In this document: one piece after another, positions 22,799-46,074 of the stretch
Layout of the letters: each line of letters begins with the position of its first letter
Position numbering within the stretch: the first letter of the stretch is position 1
NCBI GenBank assembly: GCA_003389215.1
Contig: QQVP01000121.1
Span: 62,001-126,000 of the forward strand
DNA: 64,000 nt
Origin: Planctomycetota bacterium
Lineage (GTDB): Bacteria; Planctomycetota; Planctomycetia; Pirellulales; UBA7805
Direction: 5' to 3'
Made by a program: the position numbers and the translations under genes
The notes under the pieces: generated by a model
Told to the model about the DNA's origin: nothing
Databases searched by the model: none
Seen by the model: only the letters and a program-made list of their open reading frames with translations

Positions 22799-23415
22799 GG
22801 ATACTTGCCAGGGCCAGAGGTCATCGGCCAGGGCAAATGTCCATTTGCCAAGGGCCGAAACGCGGCCCAAGTTGGTGGGAAGCGGCCGCGGGAATGTGCA
22901 TTGGGGTGGGGGCACTCCTCGGGCAGCAACCTCAGGCCGGCAAAATCGAAGCCGGTGCGGTCCGCAACCGCGAGCTAGCAGGCCAGGAGTGAATAGCCGT
23001 ATCGTAGTGCATAAGCCGTCATGGGTCAAGGAGTTAAAGCGACCCCGATGAGCCGAGGGGCACGCCCTTGGGCACTGACTTCGAGTCACAAGACGCTCGC
23101 CAGCCTGGGGTTGAGCAACGCCCGTGGTCCCAGGCGAGTTGTGGGGCAGGAAAAGCGTCCGAGTGGAGTTACCCCCGGATCCGGCGTCCGCCGACGTCGA
23201 ATCCCGCCACGATCGCGCGCGGGGGCTCACAAGTCCTGTGGCCCGCCCGCGGCGGCGGATAACTTTCTATGCCGCCGCGGCATTGCAGGCTACATTAATC
23301 GCTGTGCCCACGTCTCGTGTTGCCCGGCGCGAATTCGAAACTCCGGCTGGGCCGTGGGCGTCCCGCAACTTGGATGTGGGCAGCTTGGAAACTGGCAGCA
23401 AGTGGGAGCATCTCG
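22799..23415 (+). other. 617-base divergent intergenic region with two palindromes
   Basis: Between the PSCyt gene and the PEP-CTERM gene. It holds an 8-bp inverted repeat with a 2-base centre at 22832-22849 (GGCAAATG/CATTTGCC), about 35 bases upstream of the PSCyt start, and a 7-bp inverted repeat with a 1-base centre at 23269-23283 (ATGCCGC/GCGGCAT), about 130 bases upstream of the PEP-CTERM start. Either may be an operator for a dimeric regulator. I see no convincing promoter, RNA gene or ORF here; a sigma-54 type -24/-12 site was looked for and not found. Confidence 0.4.
22832..22849. repeat. 18-bp palindrome upstream of the PSCyt gene
   Basis: GGCAAATG-TC-CATTTGCC is a perfect inverted repeat of eight base pairs. 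Its position 34-51 bases before the start codon at 22798 suits an operator or an mRNA leader hairpin. No partner regulator is visible in the window. Confidence 0.45.
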
Positions 23416-24879
23416 GTGAATTCTCGATTCCTCCTCGTCGTGGCCGTTCTGTCGTTGATGTTGGCGATCTCGCCGGAGCCTTCGGCCGCCGTTACGGTGA
23501 CGTTGCTCAACGACCCGATCGCGGATGGAATCTTCACGGAGGACGGAGTCACCGGCTACCAGTACTTCTACGACGTGACGTTTGACTTTGGCGGCGAAAT
23601 CAACTTCGTCCAGGCCGACGCTCAGGTGCACCTGGGCGGAACGATTGGCCCGGCCGGACCGGCCGGAGCCTTTAACGGGACGGAGTCGGCGTACTATCGC
23701 GAGGCGGCCACGGATGCTTCTCGGTTCGGCGTCTGGCAGGTTTGGTATCACTCGAGCGTCGGCCAGTCCTGCTCACTCTTCGGCTGCAATACGGACAAGG
23801 ACTTCAACTACCCCGCGGCAATCGGCGATGTCGGCGGCACGGTTTGGGATACGAACGTCGTCGATACCAACGGTGACTTCGGACCCGTCGGCGCTCCGCT
23901 GCCGTGGGCCCTGGCGAATCCGTTTCACGATCCGGCCGACTATCCGCAAGACACGGCGTTGATGGATCCCGGCGGGTCGCTCAGTCCCACGCTGGGACTT
24001 GCCTGGCGAAACCTGAGTTCGGTCGTGCAAGGCAACGGCTGGATTCCGGTCCTTTCGATGACGGTGCGTATCGTGCACCCGAACTCGCCCGGTTCAATGA
24101 ACTACTACCTGACGATGGACGCTTTCGGCTTTCCCAACGGTGGCGTCGTCACCGGACCAACGGGGCCGCCGGTCGAGGTCAATACGTGTGTCATTGGGGA
24201 CGCCGACTGCGACGGCGACGTCGACATCGGCGGCGACATTCTCCCCGCGTTTACCAACTTCACCGGCCCCGGTTCGTTCGGCAAGACGCGTCTCGAAGGA
24301 GACGTGCAAGGCAGCGTGACCGGCGCTACGACCGACCCCAATGGTCACGACTCGGATGTCGATGTGAGCGACTTGCTGACCATGTTTGGGGCCTTCACGG
24401 GTCCCCTGGACGAAGCGGGCGGTTTGGGCGCGCCCGCGGCGGCAGGTGATCCTGCGATTCCCGACTTGATTTACGACCCGGCTACCGGGGAGGTGATCCT
24501 CGACCCCGATGGAAGCTCCATCATCGGCTATTCGCTGCAGAACGCCACGAACGGTTTTCTGCCAGGAGCCCACACGCCGATTCTGGCCGGCGTCACGACG
24601 GCGCTGCCGTCCCAACTCGAAGAGGCGGCCTTGGCTGCCGGCTCCGGTTCGCTTGGCCCGGTGTTTCCCACCGGCCTCGACCTGGCAGGCCTTCAATCGC
24701 TGCTCACGGTGAATCAGGTGAGCCGTTCGCTGGGGACCCCACTGGTTCCTTTCGATCTCGTCGTGCTGGGCGGTTCGCCGGCCGTGCCCGAGCCGACGTC
24801 GCTCGTGTTGTGGCTGTGCGGCTCAATTGGTGTGGGACTGCTGACGAGATGGCGCCGCCGCCTGTCGCTTGCTGGCTGA
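23416..24879 (+). CDS. Secreted PEP-CTERM protein with dockerin-like calcium repeats
   Basis: Seen: 487 residues from GTG at 23416 with GGGAG seven bases upstream (23404-23408). The signal peptide is LLVVAVLSLMLAI with a cut near residue 25. A beta-rich domain follows to about 250. A dockerin-like/EF-hand pair comes next (GDADCDGDVDIGGDIL, about 260-275; HDSDVDVSDLLTMFGAF, about 316-332). The C-terminus is VPEP, a hydrophobic helix (LVLWLCGSIGVGLL) and TRWRRR, the PEP-CTERM sorting signal. Known: exosortase EpsH-type enzymes cut PEP-CTERM and anchor or release the protein. No exosortase is in the window. Inferred: surface or extracellular protein. A longer frame starting at 23317 lacks a ribosome site and a leader. 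Confidence 0.85.
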   Translation: MNSRFLLVVAVLSLMLAISPEPSAAVTVTLLNDPIADGIFTEDGVTGYQYFYDVTFDFGGEINFVQADAQVHLGGTIGPAGPAGAFNGTESAYYREAATDASRFGVWQVWYHSSVGQSCSLFGCNTDKDFNYPAAIGDVGGTVWDTNVVDTNGDFGPVGAPLPWALANPFHDPADYPQDTALMDPGGSLSPTLGLAWRNLSSVVQGNGWIPVLSMTVRIVHPNSPGSMNYYLTMDAFGFPNGGVVTGPTGPPVEVNTCVIGDADCDGDVDIGGDILPAFTNFTGPGSFGKTRLEGDVQGSVTGATTDPNGHDSDVDVSDLLTMFGAFTGPLDEAGGLGAPAAAGDPAIPDLIYDPATGEVILDPDGSSIIGYSLQNATNGFLPGAHTPILAGVTTALPSQLEEAALAAGSGSLGPVFPTGLDLAGLQSLLTVNQVSRSLGTPLVPFDLVVLGGSPAVPEPTSLVLWLCGSIGVGLLTRWRRRLSLAG

Positions 24880-24982: not shown

Positions 24983-27004
24983 ATGGCGCAAGCGAATAAA
25001 AACGAGCCGGCGGGTCGGCGCGGAGCGTCCACCCAAAAGTCGTCGGGGGGTTCTCCTGCGGGATGGATCGCGCCGGTCGTTGTGCTGGCGGTCGGACTGG
25101 GGGCCATCGCGTGGCAAAGCGGACTGCTGGGCGAGGCAGACCGACCCGCGGAGGAGGCGGACGGGAAGTCCGCGGACTCCGCAGCAAAGAACCCGCCTTC
25201 GCGACCTCAGTTGCTGACGGACTCGGCCGAGTTGCAACTCGTCCGCGTGCGCCCGCTCGCAGAGATCGACGACCCGTCGAGCGACGGTTGGAAGAGTGAA
25301 GACGTTCACCTCCGCCTCAAGAAGCAGCTGGCCAAGCTAGGGCGACTGCTCACCTCCCCGGAGCGTGCTACGCCCGAGGCGCTCGCGCCGCTGCTGACGA
25401 ATGACTTTCGTTGTGCCCCGTTGCGCCCTGGAGAATTGGTCGTCGACCTGGAGGACGCGGCCCTGATTGTGGAGCGCGGACGTTTTGGGGACGACGCCGC
25501 GGACGCCTTTCGCGGCGCCGAGGGCCTGGCCGCGGCCATCACGGGGTTGGTCGAACCGCTCGGATCGATCAGCGAGATGCGACATGAGTTCAAGGTGACT
25601 CGGGTCGAGGTGCATGAAGACGACGTCGGCGAGGACGACGTGGACGAGGACTCCGTGGAGACCGACCTGCGCTTGGCCCTTTCCGGACAAAATGACGATG
25701 GCTTCTTCGAGCAGCACGCCCATTGGGTCTGCGAGTGGAAGCAGCCCTCCGGTGCGAAGCCGAAGCTGCATTCCCTTCGCGTCACGCGGTTCGAACAGAC
25801 CCGCGCACGCGCGCCGGCTGCCTCTTTGTTCGTAGACGTCACCGACTCGGCTCTGCGCGACACCAAGAACTACCGTGAGCAGATTCTGCGCGGTGCAAAT
25901 CACCTGTTCGAGCGGATTCCCTTCCGCTCCATGCTCAACCTGTTCAGCATGCCGGGCATTGCCGTGGGCGATGTGAATGGCGACGGACTGGAAGACCTCT
26001 ATCTGTGCCAGGACCCGGGTCTTCCCAACCGGCTCTACTTGCAGAATCGCGACGGGACCGCGCGCGAGGTCTCGCGGCAGTGGGGCGTCGACTGGTTGGA
26101 AGATGCCCGCAGTGCCCTGCTGGTCGACCTGGACAACGACGGCGACCAAGACCTGGTCGTGGCGATGCACACGGCGCTTGTGCTGGCCGAGAACGACGCG
26201 CAGCAGACGTTCCGCGTGAAGACGGTGCTGACCCCGAGCGAGGACCCGACATCGCTCGTCGCGCTCGATTACGACATGGATGGGCGACTCGACCTCTACG
26301 TCTGCGCCTATCATCCCGACGAGCTGCTGCAGGAATCTGCTGGCGCGGCGCTGGGCGCGGCGCGGGAGCGCTTCGTCATTCACGACGCCAACGACGGCGC
26401 GGCGAACCGCCTGTTTCGTAACGTTTCCGAGGATGGCGGTCCCTGGAAGTTCGACGATGTCACGGTCGACGTGGGGCTCGACGTGAACAATCGCCGCTGG
26501 AGCTTCGCGGCCGCAGCCGAAGACTACGACAACGACGGCGACCTCGACCTTTACGTGGCCAACGACTACGGCCGTGACAATCTGTATCGGAACGACGTTG
26601 GCGAGGATGGCGGGCGGCATTTTGTCGACGTGAGCGATGCTGCCCAGATCGAAAACAGTGCCGGCGGCATGGCGGTGAGCTGGGGCGACTACGATCGCGA
26701 CGGCTGGGTCGATGCGTACGTCAGCAACATGTGGTCGTCGGCCGGCCATCGGGTGACCGCCCAGCGTCGCTTCAAGGAGGGCGTCGACGAGCGCATTCGG
26801 AAGCGATTTCGACACGTCGCCGAGGGCAACACCCTGATGCGCAACAACGGGAAGGGCGTGTTTGCGAATCGCACGCTCGAAGCCGGCGTCGAAATGGGAC
26901 GGTGGGCCTGGGCCAACCGCTTCTTCGACTTGAACAACGACGGCTGGCAAGACCTCGTCGTCGCCAACGGTTACATGACGACGGAGGACACGGGCGACTT
27001 GTGA
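24983..27004 (+). CDS. FG-GAP/VCBS-repeat protein, first part of a 1341-residue frame interrupted by UGA
   Basis: Seen: 673 residues from ATG at 24983 to a TGA at 27002-27004. A membrane anchor lies at about 28-45 (GWIAPVVVLAVGLGAIAW), a soluble region to about 300, then at least six VCBS/FG-GAP calcium repeats (GDVNGDGLEDL, VDLDNDGDQDLVV, LDYDMDGRLDLYV, EDYDNDGDLDLYV, GDYDRDGWVDAYV, FDLNNDGWQDLVV). The protein ends in the middle of the repeat array, at TTEDTGDL. The same frame continues without another stop to 29008 with another calcium repeat and the ASPIC/UnbV domain that normally closes this CRTAC1-like family. Inferred: the real product is the full-length protein, with UGA read as selenocysteine (residue 674) or, alternatively, a nonsense mutation. 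Confidence 0.85.
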   Translation: MAQANKNEPAGRRGASTQKSSGGSPAGWIAPVVVLAVGLGAIAWQSGLLGEADRPAEEADGKSADSAAKNPPSRPQLLTDSAELQLVRVRPLAEIDDPSSDGWKSEDVHLRLKKQLAKLGRLLTSPERATPEALAPLLTNDFRCAPLRPGELVVDLEDAALIVERGRFGDDAADAFRGAEGLAAAITGLVEPLGSISEMRHEFKVTRVEVHEDDVGEDDVDEDSVETDLRLALSGQNDDGFFEQHAHWVCEWKQPSGAKPKLHSLRVTRFEQTRARAPAASLFVDVTDSALRDTKNYREQILRGANHLFERIPFRSMLNLFSMPGIAVGDVNGDGLEDLYLCQDPGLPNRLYLQNRDGTAREVSRQWGVDWLEDARSALLVDLDNDGDQDLVVAMHTALVLAENDAQQTFRVKTVLTPSEDPTSLVALDYDMDGRLDLYVCAYHPDELLQESAGAALGAARERFVIHDANDGAANRLFRNVSEDGGPWKFDDVTVDVGLDVNNRRWSFAAAAEDYDNDGDLDLYVANDYGRDNLYRNDVGEDGGRHFVDVSDAAQIENSAGGMAVSWGDYDRDGWVDAYVSNMWSSAGHRVTAQRRFKEGVDERIRKRFRHVAEGNTLMRNNGKGVFANRTLEAGVEMGRWAWANRFFDLNNDGWQDLVVANGYMTTEDTGDL

Positions 27005-27032
27005 AGTTTCTTCTGGCGACAGGTCGTGTCGC
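27002..27032 (+). promoter_or_regulatory. In-frame UGA with SECIS-like hairpin
   Basis: UGA (27002-27004) is followed, 11 bases later, by a perfect 5-bp stem GCGAC/GUCGC (27016-27020 with 27028-27032) closing a 7-base loop AGGUCGU (27021-27027). The distance from UGA to the loop is 16 bases. Known: the E. coli fdhF SECIS presents AGGUCU in its loop, 17 bases after the UGA, and general bacterial SECIS rules ask for a G in the first two loop positions, a 4-bp or longer stem and about 16-37 bases of spacing. All are met here. The bulged U of the E. coli element is absent. Inferred, not proven. Confidence 0.5.
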
Positions 27033-29008
27033 GTGGTGCCAACGATTCCGACGACAAGCCGACCCAGGTGGCAAATCAGCGTCAGTCCGATCTTAACGAA
27101 ATGATGCGCCGTGGTCGCTCGTTCAGCGGCCGGGAACGCAATTGCGTGTTCCTCAATACGGGTCGGCCTTCCACCGACTCACCTCGATTCGCCGACATCT
27201 CGGCCGCCTCCGGAATCGACTGGCCCGACGACGGTCGTGGCGTGGCCATCACGGACTGGGACGGCGACGGCGACCTAGACATGTGGATTTCCAATCGCAA
27301 CGCCCCGCGGGTGCGATTGATGCGAAATGAAACCAAGAGCGATCACCACTTCGTCGCGCTGCGTCTGGCTGGAAACGGCACGGATACGAATCGCGACGCG
27401 ATTGGTGCCCGGGTCGCCGTGCACCTTGCCGGTGAAGAGACGCCGCTGTTGCAGACCCTTCGAGCGGGCGAGGGTTTTGTCGCTCAGTCGACGAAGTGGC
27501 TGCACTTCGGCTTGGGCAGCAACGACCAAATCGACCGCGTCGAGGTTCGCTGGCCGCGACAGGACGATGCCCTCGAGGTATTTCGTCTGCCGGCCGTCGA
27601 CAAGCGCTATCGACTCGAACAAGCAAGCGGTGAGGCTGTGGAGCTGCCCCCGCGCGAGGATGCCATCGGCCTCGCCGCGGGAGAACCGGAGTATCCGAAA
27701 CCGGTGAGTTCGCAGCGCATTCCCGTGGTCTCCTTGCTCCGCATTCCCCCCGTGCAGTTTGCCAGCCCCTCGGTCTCGGGCAACGTGGCCACCGGCGAGG
27801 GGAAGGCGGTGCTGTTCAACCTGTGGGGAAGTTGGTGTCGCCCCTGCCGCGAGGAGCTCGCCGAGTTCACTGCGCGGGCCAAGGAATTGCGACGGGCGGG
27901 CATCGAGGTCGTCGCCATCTCGGTGGACGCGGTCGATCAGGACCGCGGCAACGTCGATGCCGCCAAGAAGTACGTCCGCCAACTGCGGTTCCCCTTCGTC
28001 GTCAAACCGGCCAGCGAAGGCGAACTCGAACTGTTTCAGGCCTACGACAGCATCCTCACGACGTTGAACCGGCCGCTGCCGATCCCTTCGAGTTTCTTGA
28101 TCGATGGTCAAGGTCGCCTGGCGGTGATCTACAAAGGTCGCGTCGGCGTCGATCAGCTGCTCGAGGATGTTGCCTACTCGTATCAATCGCTGGACGAGCG
28201 TTGGGTCGCGGCTGCGGCCTTGCCCGGCAGCCTCGTCGATCACGAGAAGCTGTCGGCTTCGCGTCGCGCTTACGAGGCCACGATTATGTTCCGCCACGCC
28301 CTCAGCCAGCTCAAGAACGATCAACTCGAACAGGCGATCTATCACCTGGGACAGGCCGTTCGTTATCGGGCCAACTTTGCTCAGGCCCACGACTACCTGG
28401 GGGCCGCCTACTCGGAGCAGGGGAATCTCCGTGCTGCGCTGCGATCGCTGCAAACCGCAGTGGCCCAGGATCCGCAGCTCGCGTCAGCCCACTACCACCT
28501 GGCCATGGTTCATGTCGAAGCGCGCGCCATGCCGCCGGCGGTGCTGTCGATGCGCGAAGCGGTTCGTGCCAACCCCGAAAAGACATTCGAGCTTACCGAC
28601 CTGGCCACGCTGCTCAGTCGCACGGCCGGCTCGGAGCAGTTGATGACGTTGGGCTCGAATGTCGTCACGCTGCACCGCCGCGTCGCCTGGCTCATGGCGA
28701 CCTCACCCGACGACCAGATGCGCAACGGCGAGGAGGCCGTTCGCTGGGCGAAACGGGTCGTCGACGTCACTGCGCGACGCCAGCCCGGTCCGCTCTGGAC
28801 CTTGGCGGCAGCATACGCAGAGGTAGGACGATTCGAAGAAGCGATCACCGTCGCCAAGGAAGCGCAGACGCTGATCGAGAACTTCAACCTGCCCGCTGCG
28901 CAGAAGGACGAGATGCTGGGCCGACTCGACGAGCAGATCGAGTTCTACGCACGTGGCGAACCTTACCGGGAAGCCGCGGCCTCGCCCGCAGCGGGTCCCC
29001 AGACCTAG
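27005..29008 (+). CDS. ASPIC/UnbV-thioredoxin-TPR part downstream of the in-frame UGA
   Basis: Seen: this frame is the direct continuation of the preceding one; from the codon after the UGA it reads SFFWRQVVSRGAND. An independent GTG start at 27026 is possible but has no ribosome site. It holds a last calcium repeat (TDWDGDGDLDMW), an ASPIC/UnbV domain (IGARVAVHLAGE to VEVRWPRQ), a thioredoxin/redoxin domain with a WCRPC active site (about 270 residues in), and TPR repeats (about 430-560 in; LEQAIYHLGQAVRY, HYHLAMVHVEA). Known: such FG-GAP-ASPIC-Trx-TPR proteins are planctomycete-rich and of unknown function, probably exported and membrane-anchored. Inferred: one protein with the upstream part. 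Confidence 0.85.
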   Translation, partial: SFFWRQVVSRGANDSDDKPTQVANQRQSDLNEMMRRGRSFSGRERNCVFLNTGRPSTDSPRFADISAASGIDWPDDGRGVAITDWDGDGDLDMWISNRNAPRVRLMRNETKSDHHFVALRLAGNGTDTNRDAIGARVAVHLAGEETPLLQTLRAGEGFVAQSTKWLHFGLGSNDQIDRVEVRWPRQDDALEVFRLPAVDKRYRLEQASGEAVELPPREDAIGLAAGEPEYPKPVSSQRIPVVSLLRIPPVQFASPSVSGNVATGEGKAVLFNLWGSWCRPCREELAEFTARAKELRRAGIEVVAISVDAVDQDRGNVDAAKKYVRQLRFPFVVKPASEGELELFQAYDSILTTLNRPLPIPSSFLIDGQGRLAVIYKGRVGVDQLLEDVAYSYQSLDERWVAAAALPGSLVDHEKLSASRRAYEATIMFRHALSQLKNDQLEQAIYHLGQAVRYRANFAQAHDYLGAAYSEQGNLRAALRSLQTAVAQDPQLASAHYHLAMVHVEARAMPPAVLSMREAVRANPEKTFELTDLATLLSRTAGSEQLMTLGSNVVTLHRRVAWLMATSPDDQMRNGEEAVRWAKRVVDVTARRQPGPLWTLAAAYAEVGRFEEAITVAKEAQTLIENFNLPAAQKDEMLGRLDEQIEFYARGEPYREAAASPAAGPQT

Positions 29009-39588: not shown

Positions 39589-42500
39589 CTAGTCCTCGAT
39601 CGTCAGCTTGATCTCGTCGCTGTTGGCCTTCAATTCGGGGGCGTACATCGCGCTGGCCCGGGTCGGCAGGGCGCTGAACTTGCCCGGAATCTCCGCCCGC
39701 ATGCGATAGGCCAGACTGTGTTTGCCGCGGGCCAGGCGGCGGACGAAGAAGGCCACCCGGTTGTCGCGGAGTTCCATGTAGGCGCCCATGTCGTTGCCGC
39801 CATAGCCGCTGCGAACCTCGACCGGTTCGAAGCCGGCCGCCTTCATGTCCTCGAAGATCAAGTACTCGTAATCGTTCTTGCTTTCGATCACCAGCTCGAT
39901 CTCGACCAGGTCGCCGCTCTTCAGCGTGCCCCGGTGAGAGACCGCCTCGCGCTCGTACTTCTCGACGCGCTGGTCGACCGCCTGGCCGCGCGACCCCTCG
40001 GCCTTGATCGTCTTGTCGACGCGGCGGAGCTTGTAGTAGTTCCGCTGCACTTTGATTTCCAAGCCCGCCTTCTCGATGAAGTCCTCGAGCGTGAAATTCG
40101 TCGTGTAGGCGTTGTAGTAGAGCGGTCCGGTTCCCTTCTTACGCAGCTCGATCGCCTGCGGGCCACTCTCCAATGCGTCGCCGGTCAGCACGAACTTGTT
40201 GTCGAAGGTGAACAGGTTGTGCGGCGTGATCTCGACGGTTTGCTGGTGTTCACCGTTGACCCACACCTCGACGGTCATCTCGGGACGATCCTCGCCACTG
40301 GCCCGCATGAAGTCGGCCAGGGCCTCGATGCAGATCGCCGTATCGCGGGTCGAGTTCCAGTAGGTGGCGTGCTTGCGATTGTTGATCAGGTATTTTGCCA
40401 GTCGCGAGGCCACGCGGCCCTTCGGATCGGTGCGCGAGAGCAGCTTCAGGTAATAGGCCTGGGCTTCAAACTCGCTGCCGTACCAGAACCACCAGTAGTT
40501 GTCCTGGGGCAGGTTGAGCCAGGCCGTCTGGTTCTCGTCGTCTTCGACCAGGAACTGCGAGATGTTTCGCAGCACCATGGTGAGCTTCTCGGCCTCCTGC
40601 TGCTTCTCCAAGGCAATACCGTACATCGCCAGGCTGTAGACGGCCAGCTTGCCGCGATCGCGATACAGGTAGTCGCGCATCTTCTCGCTCTTCTGCCCGG
40701 CATCGGCGAGCACCATGTAGACAAAGGCGTCGAGGTTGTCGGCGTGCCGCTTGTAGGGATGCGTCTCCGTCTTGGCGTTGTCGAGTCGCACGAGCTGCTC
40801 CACCTGGTAGGCCTTCAGCCACTCGACGCCGCGCTCCAACACACCTGGCACGATCGCTACGTCGTTGGCCTGAGCAATCTGCAGCCCGTGCACGACGTAG
40901 GCCGTGGTGTGGGGGTACGACCGCTCGCCGTAGCCGGAGAACCAACCCCAGCCGCCGTCGGAAAGCTGCATCTCGGTGAGCCGCGTGAGGCCGTCCTTGA
41001 CCATCCGGGCGACCTCGTCGCGGTCGAACACAGGATTGTGCTCGAACCGCTGCCAGCGGCGGGCCCGCTCGCGATCGTCGCCGATTTCCTGGGCGTTCAG
41101 GTTGGTTCGCTTGTCCTTGATCGCCGCCAGGTCGAGATTCATGTCGAGCAGAATCTTCTGGGTAATGACCGTGGGCAGGAACCGATTGAGTGTCTGCTCG
41201 GTGCAGCCGTAGGGGTACGAGACGAGATACGGCAGGGCGTCGACCATCGCCCCGGCCAGCGTGGGCGAGTAACGAATCTCGAGTCGCGATTGCTCAGGGC
41301 GTCGCTGCTCGGGAATCTTGACGGTGAACTTGGCCGTTTCCTCCTCGGGTCGCAGGGCCCCGGCCAACGAATCCATCTTCAGCATGCCGTGGATATAGAC
41401 CGGGAACTTCATCTCCATCGCGTCCGACTCTTCGTCGGTCAGGGCCTTCATGCGGACGAAGGCCTCGCCTTCGCCGCTCACGCGGACTCGCCAGTCGACA
41501 CGCTTCTCTTCGCCGGCGCCGATTTCGACTTGCTGTGTCGCCTCGGACTGGGGCGCGAGATAATTCTCGTCGACCTCCAACGAGACGGTGACCGACTTCT
41601 TCTCGTCGAGATAGTTGTGGACGTTGGCCGAGAGCACCACTTCGTCGGTGTCGACGAAGAAGCGCGGTGCTTGCAGCCGCAAAATCAGGTTCTTGCGGGT
41701 CACCACCTCCGCCTCCGACGAGCCGACCCGGGTGCCGTGCCCCATGCTCCAGGCCTTGATCTTCCACGCCGAGAGGTTCTCGGGCATGTCGAACTCGACC
41801 TCGGCGATGCCGTTCTCGTCAGTCGACAGCGCAGCCGCCCAATAGGCGGTGTCGGCGAAGTTGGTTCGCACGGTGGGTTCGACAAGCGCGCCCAATTGCG
41901 GCAGTTGCACGGTCGTTCCGGTCTCACTTTCCGACGGGCCCGCATACCCAACGCCTTCACGGTCCGCCTCCTCGAACCTGTCTACTTCGATGTCCGCCGG
42001 GGCCGCCGCGGCCATTGGCATCGCCCGACCGGCTCGTCCGTTCAGAGCGGCGCCACCGAAACCTCCACCGCCAAAGCCCCCGCCTCCAAAGCCAGCTTTA
42101 TCACGGCGCTCCCCACCCTCGGTCGCGATCTCGTCGGCCACCGTCTCGCCGAAGACGCCCAGGTTCTGCATGGCGACCTTGTTCTTGAGCACCAGATTGG
42201 CGAACAGGCGGCCCAGATTGGTTTCGCTGTGGGCGTGGTGGCGCCGGCGGAACTTCCAGAAGAACTCCTTGATCTCGGCCACGTTCGATCCGCCCGAGAT
42301 GTACTCGAGCGCCTTGTCGTAGACGGCCAACACGGTCGACGCGTCGGCCAGCGGCTTGCCGTCGGGCCCCGTGAGCTTGAGCTTCACCTTGGCCTTCTCG
42401 CCCGGCTTGTATTCGTCGGCCGACGTCTCGATGGCGACGTCGAACACCCGTTTCTCGGGCGGCACGACAATCTCGCGGGTCGCGGTATGCAGTCGGCCGT

Positions 42501-45500
42501 CGGCGATGGTGAGCGCCTCGATGAAGAAGTTGGGCATGTCGCGCTGGACGACGGCGATTTCCTCCGCGACGCTCTTGCCCGACAGACGCAAAACGGTCGG
42601 CTTCAGGTAGGCCCCGCCCGCGGCGCGGGGAAAGAGCAGCACAGTGCCGCCCGTGCGATCGGTGTTGACCAGCAGGTTGACCGTCTCACCCGGCCTGTAT
42701 TCGCGCTTGTCGGGCACGAGTTCCAGGTGATTGAAGCGGAAGGCCGACGAATCGAACCCCTCGCCGCGCACCACAAACACGTAGCCGCCCTCGATGGCGT
42801 GCCCGGCCTTGTCGGTTACCGTGTACGACAGTCGATACTGACCGGCACGACTCGCCTTGAGTTGTTGCGTTGCCCGCCCGGTGGCGTCGGGGTCGAGGTC
42901 CCACTCGCGCTCGACGGTTTCGACCGGCTGTCGATTCTTGTCGTAGCGGATCGAGAGCAGCTTGAGCTTGCCACTGCCCGCGACCGGCTCTTGATCGAGC
43001 GTCTGGGCCTGGAAACTGGCGGTGACCGTGTCGCCCACGCGATAGTGCCCCCGGTCGACCCAGGAAAAGACCTTGAACGGCTTGCGGGCCACCAGCACGC
43101 GACCGGTACCGACAATCGTGCGGCGCGATTGGTCGACGACCTCGGCGGTAATCGTGTACTCGTGGTCCTGGTTGCCGTGAATCTCCTTGGCCACGGCGGT
43201 GTCGATCTCGATCTCGACCTTGCCTTCGGCACCGATCTCCATTTCCCGCTCGGCGATCAGCTCGGGCTGCTGCATCGGCATCGGCCACCACCAGGGCGAC
43301 GGCGCCACACAACCCCACTCGGACCAACCGGGATACCAGGTGTAGTTCGAGGCGAACCACCAATAGCCGCGTCCGTAGAGCCAATCCCAGCGGCCGATGG
43401 GGAACCAGGTGCTCGTATAGCTCTTGCGAAGAATCTTGTACTTGACCTTCGCCTCGGTCACGGGCGAGCCAAAGTAATAGCGGGCATTGAGCGTGGCCGT
43501 GATCTTCTCGCCCAGCATGACCGGCTCGCTGGGGGCATCGACGGTCACTTCGAACTCGGGCTTCTTGTACTCTTCCACGCGAAAGTTGCCGCTGCCCACG
43601 TGGGTGCCGTCCTTGGCGCCCACACGCACGATGTACTGATACGCCCCAAGCGTGGCGTCGGCCGGCAGCGGCAGCTCGCCCGCGATGCCGCCGAACTTGT
43701 CGGCGGTGTACTTTTCGTGCTGAATCGTCTCGCGCTTGGGATTGAAGAACTCGACGTAGAATTCCTTGTCCGCGTAGCTCGACTCGGCGGGCTGATCGAA
43801 CCGCGGGCGGCGGATCCAGCACTTGAACTTCACCGTCTGGTCGGGCCGATAGACGGGTCGGTCGGTGATCGCAAACGTCTTGGTCTGGTGATAGACCGGA
43901 TCGGTGTAGCGCGGATGCCAGACACCGCTGAAGCCGAGATAGGCCAACCGTTGCGGCTGTCCATCGGGCCGCTTGGTGCGGGCAATGGCGATCCATTGAA
44001 AGTTGCTCGGCTGTCGTTTGCCGTCCAGAATGATCTGGCCGTCGCCGTCCGTCTTCTCGGCGAAATTCTTGGTGTGCACAGTGTATTGCCGCGCGCGGCC
44101 GCGGGCCCGACCGCCTTTAGGGCGATTGCCCAGGTACTCTTGCCGGTAGCCGAAGAACTCGACGTTGACGCCATCGAGCGGCGTGCCGCTGACCGCATCG
44201 GCGACGAAATAGAACGTTGCCCCGTCGAGTGGTTTCTTCACGATCGCCGTGTCCGAGAGCCAGACCACGATCTTGCTGGTGTTGCCACCGTCCATCTTGG
44301 CGGTCACCAGGTAGGCGCCCGCTTTTTGCAGCGGAGTGGTCACGGTGACCCGTTTGTCGAAGTGCGCCTCGCGGGGTTCGACATCGAGCTCCCAGCTGGC
44401 GGTCTTCTCGCCCAGGTACTTCCGCTCGTTCTGGTGCACCAGACGATAGCCGATGTTGCCGATGTTGATCTTGTTCCATTCGATCTGGGCCGGGTTCGAC
44501 TCGAGATATTCCTTCAGGTCGGAGAGCAAGAGTTCAACCTTGATCGGGTGCGCCTCGAAGCGCACCTTCTTGCCGTTGCGGAACCGATAATCGACCGTGG
44601 CCCCGCTGCCGGCCGGCTGATTCATGACCGGTTCGAAGCGTCCCCAGTTGTCGACGATCTGAGACAGCTGGCGTTGGGCCGACGCGCCCCCGTTGTTCTT
44701 GATCAAGGCCCGCAGGACCTCCGCGGCACGCGGATATTGCCGGCGGTTCTGAAAGATCTGGGCCAGCTGCGACTGGGCCTCGCGCACGAACGACCAGTTT
44801 CCGCGACCAGCAGCGTCGCCGCGCGCGATCTGCTCGAAGAGCTTGATGAAGTTATGCTCGTCGGGCAGCTCAAAGCGTTTGATCCCCGTGGCCAGACGGG
44901 CGATTGTCTCGTTTTCGCCGAGAGTGTGCAGCGCGTAGGTGCCGCTTTCGTCGTTCGTGGTGTCGTCGTCGAGCAATCCCCCGGCGAAAAAACGGCCGAA
45001 GTAAGCCATCGTCTGCACGCCGAACTGCTGCATGAGAAACTGTGCGCGGGTGAATCGCACGCGATTCAGCTGCGACGGATCCGACTCGGCCGCCTGGTCG
45101 AGCGCCCAGCGCCATCGCTCGCCGTCGGTCTTCGCCTCGGCAAAGGTGCGAACCGTATCGTGATAGATCGGCGTTCCTTCCGCGTCGACCGGCGCCCCAC
45201 TCGCCCCGCGGCCAAAGTTCCATGACTCTTCGTAGTCGGGTAGTTCGTCGATGTTCGTCAGGTACTGCAGCCGCCACGCTCCGCCGCCTCCGCGGGAATG
45301 GAGCAAATCGTTGGCCAGCTGAAAGTAGAAATTAAAACGTTCGCCGGGCGTGGCGTCCTCACCCATCGCCTCGCTTGCCTGAACCATCAACTGAAGCGAG
45401 CGAACACGATCGCGCTCGAGGGCGAAAACCTGTCGCCCGCCTCCCCGATGGCGACCGCGGCGAAACTCGCCGGCGATCATGAAGCCGTCGTGTTGAATCG

Positions 45501-45849
45501 ACATGTAATTGCGGGCAGCGGCGAACAGCAGTCGCCAATTGTCCGCATGACGGGCGATCACCGCCTCGCGATAGGCATCGATCTCGTGGACTCGGTTGAG
45601 GCGCACCAGACAGTAGGTGGCTTGCTGAAGATCCTGCCCGACGGTCTTGGGATCGGCATCGGCGGCGAGCGTGATTTGGCGATAGAGCTCGTAGGCTTCG
45701 GCGAAGTTGTTCTCTTGATAGAGCTGAGCCGCCCGCTTTCGCAAGTCGCCCGGTTCCGCATCGGCCGAGAGCAGTGGGGTCCCGCTGAGCGTGAGCAGGA
45801 GAGGAAAGCCGAGCAGGCAAGCGGTCCGCCGATAGCTGGTGAACATCAT
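39589..45849 (-). CDS. Bacterial alpha-2-macroglobulin family protein
   Basis: Seen: 2086 residues from ATG at 45849 (AAGGAA upstream). A signal peptide (about 10-33) is followed by TPR-like helices (to about 400), the macroglobulin beta domains (DRPVYRPDQTVKFKCW, RDMPNFFIEAL and others), a Gly-rich spacer (GFGGGGFGGGGFGG), and the thioester domain with GCTEQT near residue 1545, whose Cys and Gln form the thioester. The complement-like and receptor-binding-like ends follow. Known: these periplasmic or surface proteins trap attacking proteases by thioester capture; E. coli YfhM is often paired with PbpC, absent here. The protein is larger than YfhM (about 1650), mainly through the helical N-terminus. 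Upstream extension to 46026 rejected. Confidence 0.92.
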   Translation of the reverse strand: MMFTSYRRTACLLGFPLLLTLSGTPLLSADAEPGDLRKRAAQLYQENNFAEAYELYRQITLAADADPKTVGQDLQQATYCLVRLNRVHEIDAYREAVIARHADNWRLLFAAARNYMSIQHDGFMIAGEFRRGRHRGGGRQVFALERDRVRSLQLMVQASEAMGEDATPGERFNFYFQLANDLLHSRGGGGAWRLQYLTNIDELPDYEESWNFGRGASGAPVDAEGTPIYHDTVRTFAEAKTDGERWRWALDQAAESDPSQLNRVRFTRAQFLMQQFGVQTMAYFGRFFAGGLLDDDTTNDESGTYALHTLGENETIARLATGIKRFELPDEHNFIKLFEQIARGDAAGRGNWSFVREAQSQLAQIFQNRRQYPRAAEVLRALIKNNGGASAQRQLSQIVDNWGRFEPVMNQPAGSGATVDYRFRNGKKVRFEAHPIKVELLLSDLKEYLESNPAQIEWNKINIGNIGYRLVHQNERKYLGEKTASWELDVEPREAHFDKRVTVTTPLQKAGAYLVTAKMDGGNTSKIVVWLSDTAIVKKPLDGATFYFVADAVSGTPLDGVNVEFFGYRQEYLGNRPKGGRARGRARQYTVHTKNFAEKTDGDGQIILDGKRQPSNFQWIAIARTKRPDGQPQRLAYLGFSGVWHPRYTDPVYHQTKTFAITDRPVYRPDQTVKFKCWIRRPRFDQPAESSYADKEFYVEFFNPKRETIQHEKYTADKFGGIAGELPLPADATLGAYQYIVRVGAKDGTHVGSGNFRVEEYKKPEFEVTVDAPSEPVMLGEKITATLNARYYFGSPVTEAKVKYKILRKSYTSTWFPIGRWDWLYGRGYWWFASNYTWYPGWSEWGCVAPSPWWWPMPMQQPELIAEREMEIGAEGKVEIEIDTAVAKEIHGNQDHEYTITAEVVDQSRRTIVGTGRVLVARKPFKVFSWVDRGHYRVGDTVTASFQAQTLDQEPVAGSGKLKLLSIRYDKNRQPVETVEREWDLDPDATGRATQQLKASRAGQYRLSYTVTDKAGHAIEGGYVFVVRGEGFDSSAFRFNHLELVPDKREYRPGETVNLLVNTDRTGGTVLLFPRAAGGAYLKPTVLRLSGKSVAEEIAVVQRDMPNFFIEALTIADGRLHTATREIVVPPEKRVFDVAIETSADEYKPGEKAKVKLKLTGPDGKPLADASTVLAVYDKALEYISGGSNVAEIKEFFWKFRRRHHAHSETNLGRLFANLVLKNKVAMQNLGVFGETVADEIATEGGERRDKAGFGGGGFGGGGFGGAALNGRAGRAMPMAAAAPADIEVDRFEEADREGVGYAGPSESETGTTVQLPQLGALVEPTVRTNFADTAYWAAALSTDENGIAEVEFDMPENLSAWKIKAWSMGHGTRVGSSEAEVVTRKNLILRLQAPRFFVDTDEVVLSANVHNYLDEKKSVTVSLEVDENYLAPQSEATQQVEIGAGEEKRVDWRVRVSGEGEAFVRMKALTDEESDAMEMKFPVYIHGMLKMDSLAGALRPEEETAKFTVKIPEQRRPEQSRLEIRYSPTLAGAMVDALPYLVSYPYGCTEQTLNRFLPTVITQKILLDMNLDLAAIKDKRTNLNAQEIGDDRERARRWQRFEHNPVFDRDEVARMVKDGLTRLTEMQLSDGGWGWFSGYGERSYPHTTAYVVHGLQIAQANDVAIVPGVLERGVEWLKAYQVEQLVRLDNAKTETHPYKRHADNLDAFVYMVLADAGQKSEKMRDYLYRDRGKLAVYSLAMYGIALEKQQEAEKLTMVLRNISQFLVEDDENQTAWLNLPQDNYWWFWYGSEFEAQAYYLKLLSRTDPKGRVASRLAKYLINNRKHATYWNSTRDTAICIEALADFMRASGEDRPEMTVEVWVNGEHQQTVEITPHNLFTFDNKFVLTGDALESGPQAIELRKKGTGPLYYNAYTTNFTLEDFIEKAGLEIKVQRNYYKLRRVDKTIKAEGSRGQAVDQRVEKYEREAVSHRGTLKSGDLVEIELVIESKNDYEYLIFEDMKAAGFEPVEVRSGYGGNDMGAYMELRDNRVAFFVRRLARGKHSLAYRMRAEIPGKFSALPTRASAMYAPELKANSDEIKLTIED

Positions 45850-46074
45850 GGGTTCCTTGTTCCTGTAGTTCCGTTCCGAAGCTCGTCTTGCCCTTCGATC
45901 CCCGTGCTCATCTCGTTCCCTGGCCCAAGGACGGTGGTCCCCCCCCCCAACAATTCGCCAGCATGGAGCCCCAGGCCTCAGACCTGAGACGCGCCGGCGG
46001 GCTGATTCGTTCCCGAGATTTTCCACAGCATACCTGGAACCGGCGATTCGGCGTGCCTAACCCGGAAACGGGGC

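Follow-up and report, generated by a model that had tools for sequence, protein, structure and literature searches.

The gene and its in-frame UGA

The window analysed here is a stretch of 64,000 nucleotides from contig QQVP01000121.1 of a Planctomycetota bacterium (assembly GCA_003389215.1), and its forward strand carries a long gene at positions 24983-29008. The gene occupies a single frame of 1342 codons including the terminal stop, a TAG at 29006-29008, and its sole interruption is a TGA at 27002-27004, codon 674. An earlier note on this DNA had described the continuous frame with its one TGA, which frame analysis bears out, and had proposed that the UGA encodes selenocysteine (Sec). With the selenocysteine machinery present in the genome, TGA at most aligned homologous sites and a conserved, covarying hairpin, we consider this proposal very probably correct. 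As that note also recognized, the codon does not lie at a domain boundary; it cuts through one domain array, and family sequence flanks it on both sides. The computed mass of the product is ~148 kDa with the UGA read through, in place of the ~145 kDa given earlier, and 74 kDa if translation stops there.

Downstream of the UGA, the RNA can form a hairpin with a stem of 6 bp (GCGACA/UGUCGC), which folds on its own at -7.9 kcal/mol. The five pairs proposed before, 27016-27020/27028-27032, are present, and positions 27021 and 27027 pair as well, so that the loop is the 5-nt GGUCG, not AGGUCGU, and lies 17 nt, not 16, after the UGA. As the earlier note had suggested, the loop seems to resemble that of Escherichia coli fdhF. 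The stem, the spacing and the folding energy all fall within the published limits for bacterial Sec insertion sequence (SECIS) elements, as had been claimed; these are a loop of 3-9 nt, at least 4 bp, a G within the first two positions of the loop, 16-37 nt of spacing and at most -7.5 kcal/mol (PMC13188914). Nevertheless, the window hairpin by itself is unconvincing, as its stability is like that of shuffled sequences (z-scores of 0.02, 0.37 and 0.86 at three lengths), and the case is therefore decided by the comparison across homologues. A search against Rfam gave no match at the gathering threshold, and its only two matches, both at chance level (E-values of 3.9 and 4.2) belonged to unrelated families.

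Conservation of the UGA, the hairpin and the machinery

Using the 298 residues around the site, we searched 57 near genomes, namely the source genome and 56 relatives. Matches were found in 27 of the 57, and all 56 matches at E ≤1.4e-66 read '1 TGA' (one of them, G009:C92, is not among the fetched loci), while weaker matches were mixed. A regular-expression search gave 60 matches, or 57 after the removal of 3 outside the family. The source genome holds ten family members with a TGA, eight other counted genomes hold 3-7 each and the remaining fetched genomes fewer; six genomes have at least five paralogues, each with a TGA. In a broader phylum sample, where at most five candidates were scored per genome, 112 of 392 genomes matched at 1e-30, with or without a TGA. 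Among the best 80 of at least 202 confirmed loci, the TGA sites with a phylum label comprised 48 from Verrucomicrobiota, 21 from Planctomycetota and single metagenome-assembled genomes labelled Acidobacteriota and Pseudomonadota.

To compare the codon itself, we aligned hmmsearch matches (1e-10) that span the Sec column and treated sites without a difference over 90 bases as one, which gave 206 distinct homologous sites, mostly from Planctomycetota and Verrucomicrobiota and not independent, many being paralogues or from near species. The aligned codon is TGA in 182 of the 206, a proportion that is no natural frequency because the 20 sites with neither TGA nor Cys, and two of the four with Cys, had been chosen for showing no stop. 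The 24 non-TGA sites comprise 6 Glu, 4 Ala, 4 Cys, 3 Asn, 3 Arg, 2 Gln, 1 Asp and 1 Ser, and the sense-codon homologues have one uninterrupted frame across the site. All four Cys sites belong to one distant clade. Further distant loci, 9 of 11 of which cover the site, have Cys in five cases (at least one of these, L280, repeating an earlier aligned site, L104), Gly in two, and Ala and Gln in one each, making Cys the commonest residue at the Sec position in the distant clade. The check for Cys or UGA that the earlier note had suggested thus returned predominantly TGA, with Cys confined to distant relatives.

Two groups of variant genes were also observed. A second FG-GAP subfamily (L016, L017, L105 and L106), ~33% identical and 820-910 aa long, has an in-frame TGA of its own in a GU-x-C-x-W context (U denoting Sec), together with a different hairpin of 5-6 bp, which reads GGCUGU-CGUGUC-ACAGCC in three of the four. 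At locus L261, two neighbouring genes encode the variant motif DL-U-PPFW as well as a thioredoxin CxxC motif, and neither hairpin reaches the published stability limit.

The hairpin that had been expected in homologues was found, with covariation. Among 155 close TGA members, six pairs are formed in 134, five in 20 and four in 1. To obtain an expectation, the codons after the UGA of each gene were redrawn synonymously from its own usage in 300 rounds. All six pairs were then expected in 5.2 of the close members (maximum 13), compared with the 134 observed, and in 0.9 of the farther TGA members (maximum 6), compared with 18 of 19 observed. The sense-codon homologues showed no such excess, with six pairs in 0 of 20 non-Cys (0.5 expected) and 0 of 4 Cys members. 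The most variable pair occurs as A-U, G-C, C-G, U-A, G-U and U-G, with at least 15 changes of Watson-Crick type on a FastTree tree, and another pair changes type 9 times. The published bacterial SECIS rule is satisfied by 124 of the 182 TGA members and by 5.8% of their shuffles. Judged from these sequences, the hairpin is conserved beyond the needs of the protein and appears to be selected only in TGA members. The codon preceding the UGA is also biased, both at 26999-27001 and in homologues, and this excess of TTG possibly reflects a lower stem or a recoding context.

Finally, the source genome (5.5 Mb in 135 contigs, 93% complete) contains all four genes that the earlier note had named for a search, selA, selB, selC and selD. 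The selB gene scores over its curated cut-off and adjoins selA on the same contig. There are four selD genes (L048, L049, L050 and L051), all scoring over the cut-off and each with one in-frame TGA, and the tRNA-Sec has the anticodon UCA. One selD, on G000:C21, lies ~10 kb from the nearer of two family members. TGA serves as an ordinary stop too, ending 7 of the 14 Pfam-matched open reading frames (ORFs) of the window. SelB tracks the TGA members: it was found in 14 of 16 near genomes with such members, the source genome included, and in 11 of 41 without them (p 5e-5, kinship ignored). Among the matches listed for the phylum sample, where unlisted weaker matches count as lacking a TGA member, SelB occurred in 64 of 69 genomes with TGA members and in 172 of 323 without (p 8e-11, kinship again ignored).

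Protein architecture and gene neighbourhood

The domain order proposed in the earlier note, FG-GAP/ASPIC-thioredoxin-TPR, agrees with the Pfam matches, which are FG-GAP repeats, UnbV_ASPIC, AhpC-TSA and TPRs. The positions of these and the other features are given in Table 1.

Table 1. Features of the gene and of the sequence around its in-frame UGA (window coordinates).
Feature	Position	Strand	Basis
Candidate selenoprotein gene, UGA read as Sec, 1341 residues, ~148 kDa	24983..29008	+	frame analysis
Hydrophobic stretch (residues 26-44), probably an N-terminal membrane anchor or signal	25058..25114	+	hydropathy inference
CRTAC1-like FG-GAP beta-propeller region, residues ~275-805	25805..27397	+	Pfam FG-GAP_3, model, match to 9etn
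Leu codon TTG preceding the UGA	26999..27001	+	TTG in 137/155 close TGA members, 25.3 expected from codon use
In-frame UGA, predicted selenocysteine 674	27002..27004	+	frame and homologue alignment
Predicted bacterial SECIS hairpin	27016..27032	+	stem 27016-27021/27027-27032, loop 27022-27026 GGUCG
Cys721, ERNC motif	27143..27145	+	Cys in 54/66 aligned rows
ASPIC/UnbV domain, residues 806-876	27398..27610	+	Pfam
TlpA/ResA-like thioredoxin domain, residues 939-1047	27797..28123	+	profile and structure matches
Redox motif CRPC, Cys952 and Cys955	27836..27847	+	sequence
TPR repeats, residues ~1106-1300	28298..28882	+	Pfam/profile matches

FG-GAP and UnbV_ASPIC both score over the Pfam cut-off, and together with the fold they identify the first part of the protein as CRTAC1-like. 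A model of residues 275-1065, built from 66 aligned rows, reached a mean predicted local distance difference test score (pLDDT) of 90.1 and a predicted template modelling score (pTM) of 0.92. Its best match among solved structures is murine CRTAC1, 9etn, with a Foldseek E-value of 1e-28 and a template modelling (TM) score of 0.76 by target and 0.54 by query, and an hmmsearch E-value of 7e-30. The C-terminal part of the model matches ResA and TlpA, and the AhpC-TSA/Redoxin domain with its CxxC motif is of the TlpA/ResA-like kind; the NCBIfam TlpA and ResA models are matched only below their curated cut-offs. Sec674 corresponds to model residue 400 and a helix is predicted at 399-410, which would place Sec at the start of a helix on the propeller. 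Frequent Cys residues are found at 342, 441, 721, 952 and 955 (49 to 57 of the 66 rows). The CxxC motif is present in 97 of the 162 TGA members whose 3' end is complete (96 with a narrower motif) and in 0 of 24 non-TGA members.

The upstream neighbour, at 23317-24879 on the forward strand, is a 520-aa ORF with no Pfam match. Beyond it lie genes for a PSCyt1/PSCyt2/PSD1 protein and a DUF1501 protein, and mutS and fliG are found on the other side of the gene. On an 89.6-kb contig of a relative (L263-L266, G008:C105), five Sec-FG-GAP genes form an array. Three of the five directly adjoin a non-Sec FG-GAP/ASPIC gene, and genes in between encode multihaem-type cytochromes, a Cu-monooxygenase/TPR protein and a sulfotransferase/TPR protein. 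The neighbourhoods in the window and on the array contig give hints and point to no pathway. The window was also scanned by coding score for further read-through TGAs. The scan proved insensitive, ranking the known site eighth, and its best site, 53441 on the forward strand, scored 0.21/0.14, whereas 11 of 14 reference genes scored 0.24-0.41. Elsewhere in the window, a very long ORF of 2145 aa on the reverse strand (39589-46026) lies opposite another long ORF, 39718-45225 on the forward strand.

Reading of the UGA and comparison with known systems

Several observations, besides the ordinary stability of the window hairpin, weigh against decoding of the UGA as Sec in this family. SelB was not matched in two of the near genomes that have TGA members (these two are 65% and 70% complete) and in 5 of the 69 TGA-bearing genomes of the phylum sample. 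Five non-TGA members keep five of the six pairs, and the published hairpin rule is satisfied by 6 of 24 non-TGA members, compared with 8.3% of shuffles. In a simple ungapped test, 58 of the 182 TGA sites miss the limit of -7.5 kcal/mol. At 8 of the 182 the pairs are missing from the main register; five of these (L262, L168 and three of the GU-type clade) satisfy the rule by another hairpin, and three (L016 and two in L261) by none. The tree, in which 62 of 203 inner branches are weak and some branches long, contains only 4 supported contrasts between TGA and non-TGA members; the hairpin follows the TGA in 3.2 of these on average and opposes it in 0, which is not significant alone. As these contrasts are too few, it is the codon-redraw test that carries the point that the hairpin follows the TGA. 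The association of Sec with the thioredoxin CxxC motif is likewise not significant on the tree, which offers too few contrasts. Finally, the close non-TGA relatives (L223-L236 and L237-L242) have Glu, Ala, Gln, Asn, Arg, Asp or Ser at the site and not Cys, residues that fit a simple Sec/Cys swap poorly.

A lone in-frame stop is usually explained by a nonsense mutation or a sequencing error, such as a misread TGC or TGG. This explanation, to which we give practically no weight, is refuted by the same TGA in ten paralogues of the source genome and in dozens of other genomes; a sequencing error cannot account for a TGA shared so widely. It is very improbable that the UGA is a true stop separating two proteins, a 673-residue propeller fragment of 74 kDa and a product of downstream restart. 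A GTG-started ORF is indeed present at 27026-29008, yet the codon cuts one domain array that sense-codon homologues encode without interruption, family sequence continues past the UGA at the 182 TGA sites, the hairpin appears to be selected only in TGA members, and six genomes have at least five paralogues with a TGA in each. Decoding of UGA is generally incomplete, and a product ending at the UGA would retain most of the propeller, so both forms could be made under a selenium- or SelB-dependent switch; a physiologically relevant truncation of this kind is improbable, if less so than a plain stop, as conserved family sequence runs hundreds of residues beyond the UGA. Codes in which UGA is reassigned exist in other bacteria, and near-cognate reading could insert Trp. 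Another amino acid at this UGA is nonetheless exceedingly improbable, since tRNA-Sec and SelB are present and none of the aligned sense-codon homologues has Trp; code reassignment was rejected on the homologues, the Sec machinery and the normal use of TGA as a stop.

A further question concerns what Sec would do on the propeller. It might serve as a metal ligand or in other non-redox chemistry instead of as a thiol-type redox centre, which we regard as unlikely but as the most serious of the alternatives. FG-GAP repeats bind calcium, and the close sense-codon relatives have the residues listed above in place of Cys; furthermore, CxxC is lacking in 65 of the 162 TGA members whose 3' end is complete, and there is a weak fold match to the metal-dependent dehydratase 4a7y (TM score of 0.29 by target). 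On the other hand, Cys is the commonest residue at the site in the distant clade (five of nine covering loci, in addition to the four earlier Cys sites), and the helix-start placement of Sec674 resembles what we take to be the setting of known redox Sec and Cys sites.

The conserved UGA, the selected hairpin, the machinery and the domain order are all read from sequence, whereas the actual insertion of Sec, export, a redox role and a thioredoxin relay are inferred. The hairpin at 27016-27032 would recruit SelB and Sec-tRNA-Sec (UCA), and Sec would be inserted at residue 674 to yield one protein of ~148 kDa. This protein, in which a CRTAC1-like FG-GAP/ASPIC propeller is joined to a thioredoxin domain of the TlpA/ResA type and to TPRs, would be anchored in the membrane or exported, and is likely a redox enzyme outside the cytoplasm. 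Sec674 could act there as a redox nucleophile that Cys721, the CRPC site of the fused thioredoxin, or both would return to the reduced state, a mechanism towards which we lean slightly. The paralogues might serve different partners or substrates.

The family looks like a new, multicopy selenoprotein family in at least two phyla. Table 1 of PMC13188914, a review from 2026 with 119 prokaryotic selenoprotein families and subfamilies, contains no FG-GAP, ASPIC/UnbV or CRTAC1 entry, and a word search of that paper gave 0 matches. In the accessible part of PMC12013277, deep-Sep is reported to have found nine new families, none of them FG-GAP/ASPIC, with a filter that requires known Sec or Cys homologues; published selenoprotein finders rely on Sec/Cys pairs, according to PMC2398784 and PMC12013277. 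The family has perhaps been overlooked because close Cys homologues are lacking. Among the papers listed by searches of the open journal literature, and as far as nearly all of these could be judged from their listed entries, none joins selenoproteins with bacterial FG-GAP/ASPIC proteins; a member might still be among the candidate selenoproteins that PMC4807772 gives for two planctomycetes in its S9 table.

We are evenly divided on whether the family amounts to a large class of planctomycete and verrucomicrobial selenoenzymes that is missing from the catalogue, with Sec on a beta-propeller instead of in a thioredoxin-like fold, in many members a fused thioredoxin outside the cytoplasm that serves it, and an expansion to ten paralogues in one genome. 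If so, the family would go far to explain why these bacteria retain selenocysteine, and its selenium chemistry would be one not yet described; the copy number and the link to SelB suggest that the family may help drive selenocysteine use in both groups. It would add to the prokaryotic selenoproteome a widespread group absent from the 119-family catalogue. Wherever TGA is taken as a stop, its genes appear as two truncated pieces, and the sense-codon paralogues offer natural controls for the role of Sec on the propeller.

Compared with known systems, the window protein combines elements familiar from elsewhere. CRTAC1 (cartilage acidic protein 1, 9etn) and bacterial FG-GAP/ASPIC proteins share with it the propeller plus ASPIC. 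What sets the window family apart is the predicted Sec, placed within a DLU-S-x-x-WR motif, and the thioredoxin domain that many of its members carry; to our knowledge, CRTAC1 itself is no selenoprotein. The C-terminal domain with its CRPC site is like thioredoxins of the TlpA/ResA/DsbE type. In contrast to the listed UGC-containing TlpA selenoproteins, Sec here would lie in the propeller, 278 residues upstream of the first thioredoxin Cys, and the thioredoxin motif itself is Cys/Cys. In E. coli fdhF and in the bacterial SECIS model set out in PMC13188914, too, a short hairpin within the coding sequence directly follows the UGA; the difference is in the carrier, here a protein family absent from the list published there. 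Glycine reductase selenoprotein A (GrdA) was once thought to be without Cys homologues, as PMC12013277 states; it is an unrelated protein, and the window family does have distant Cys homologues.

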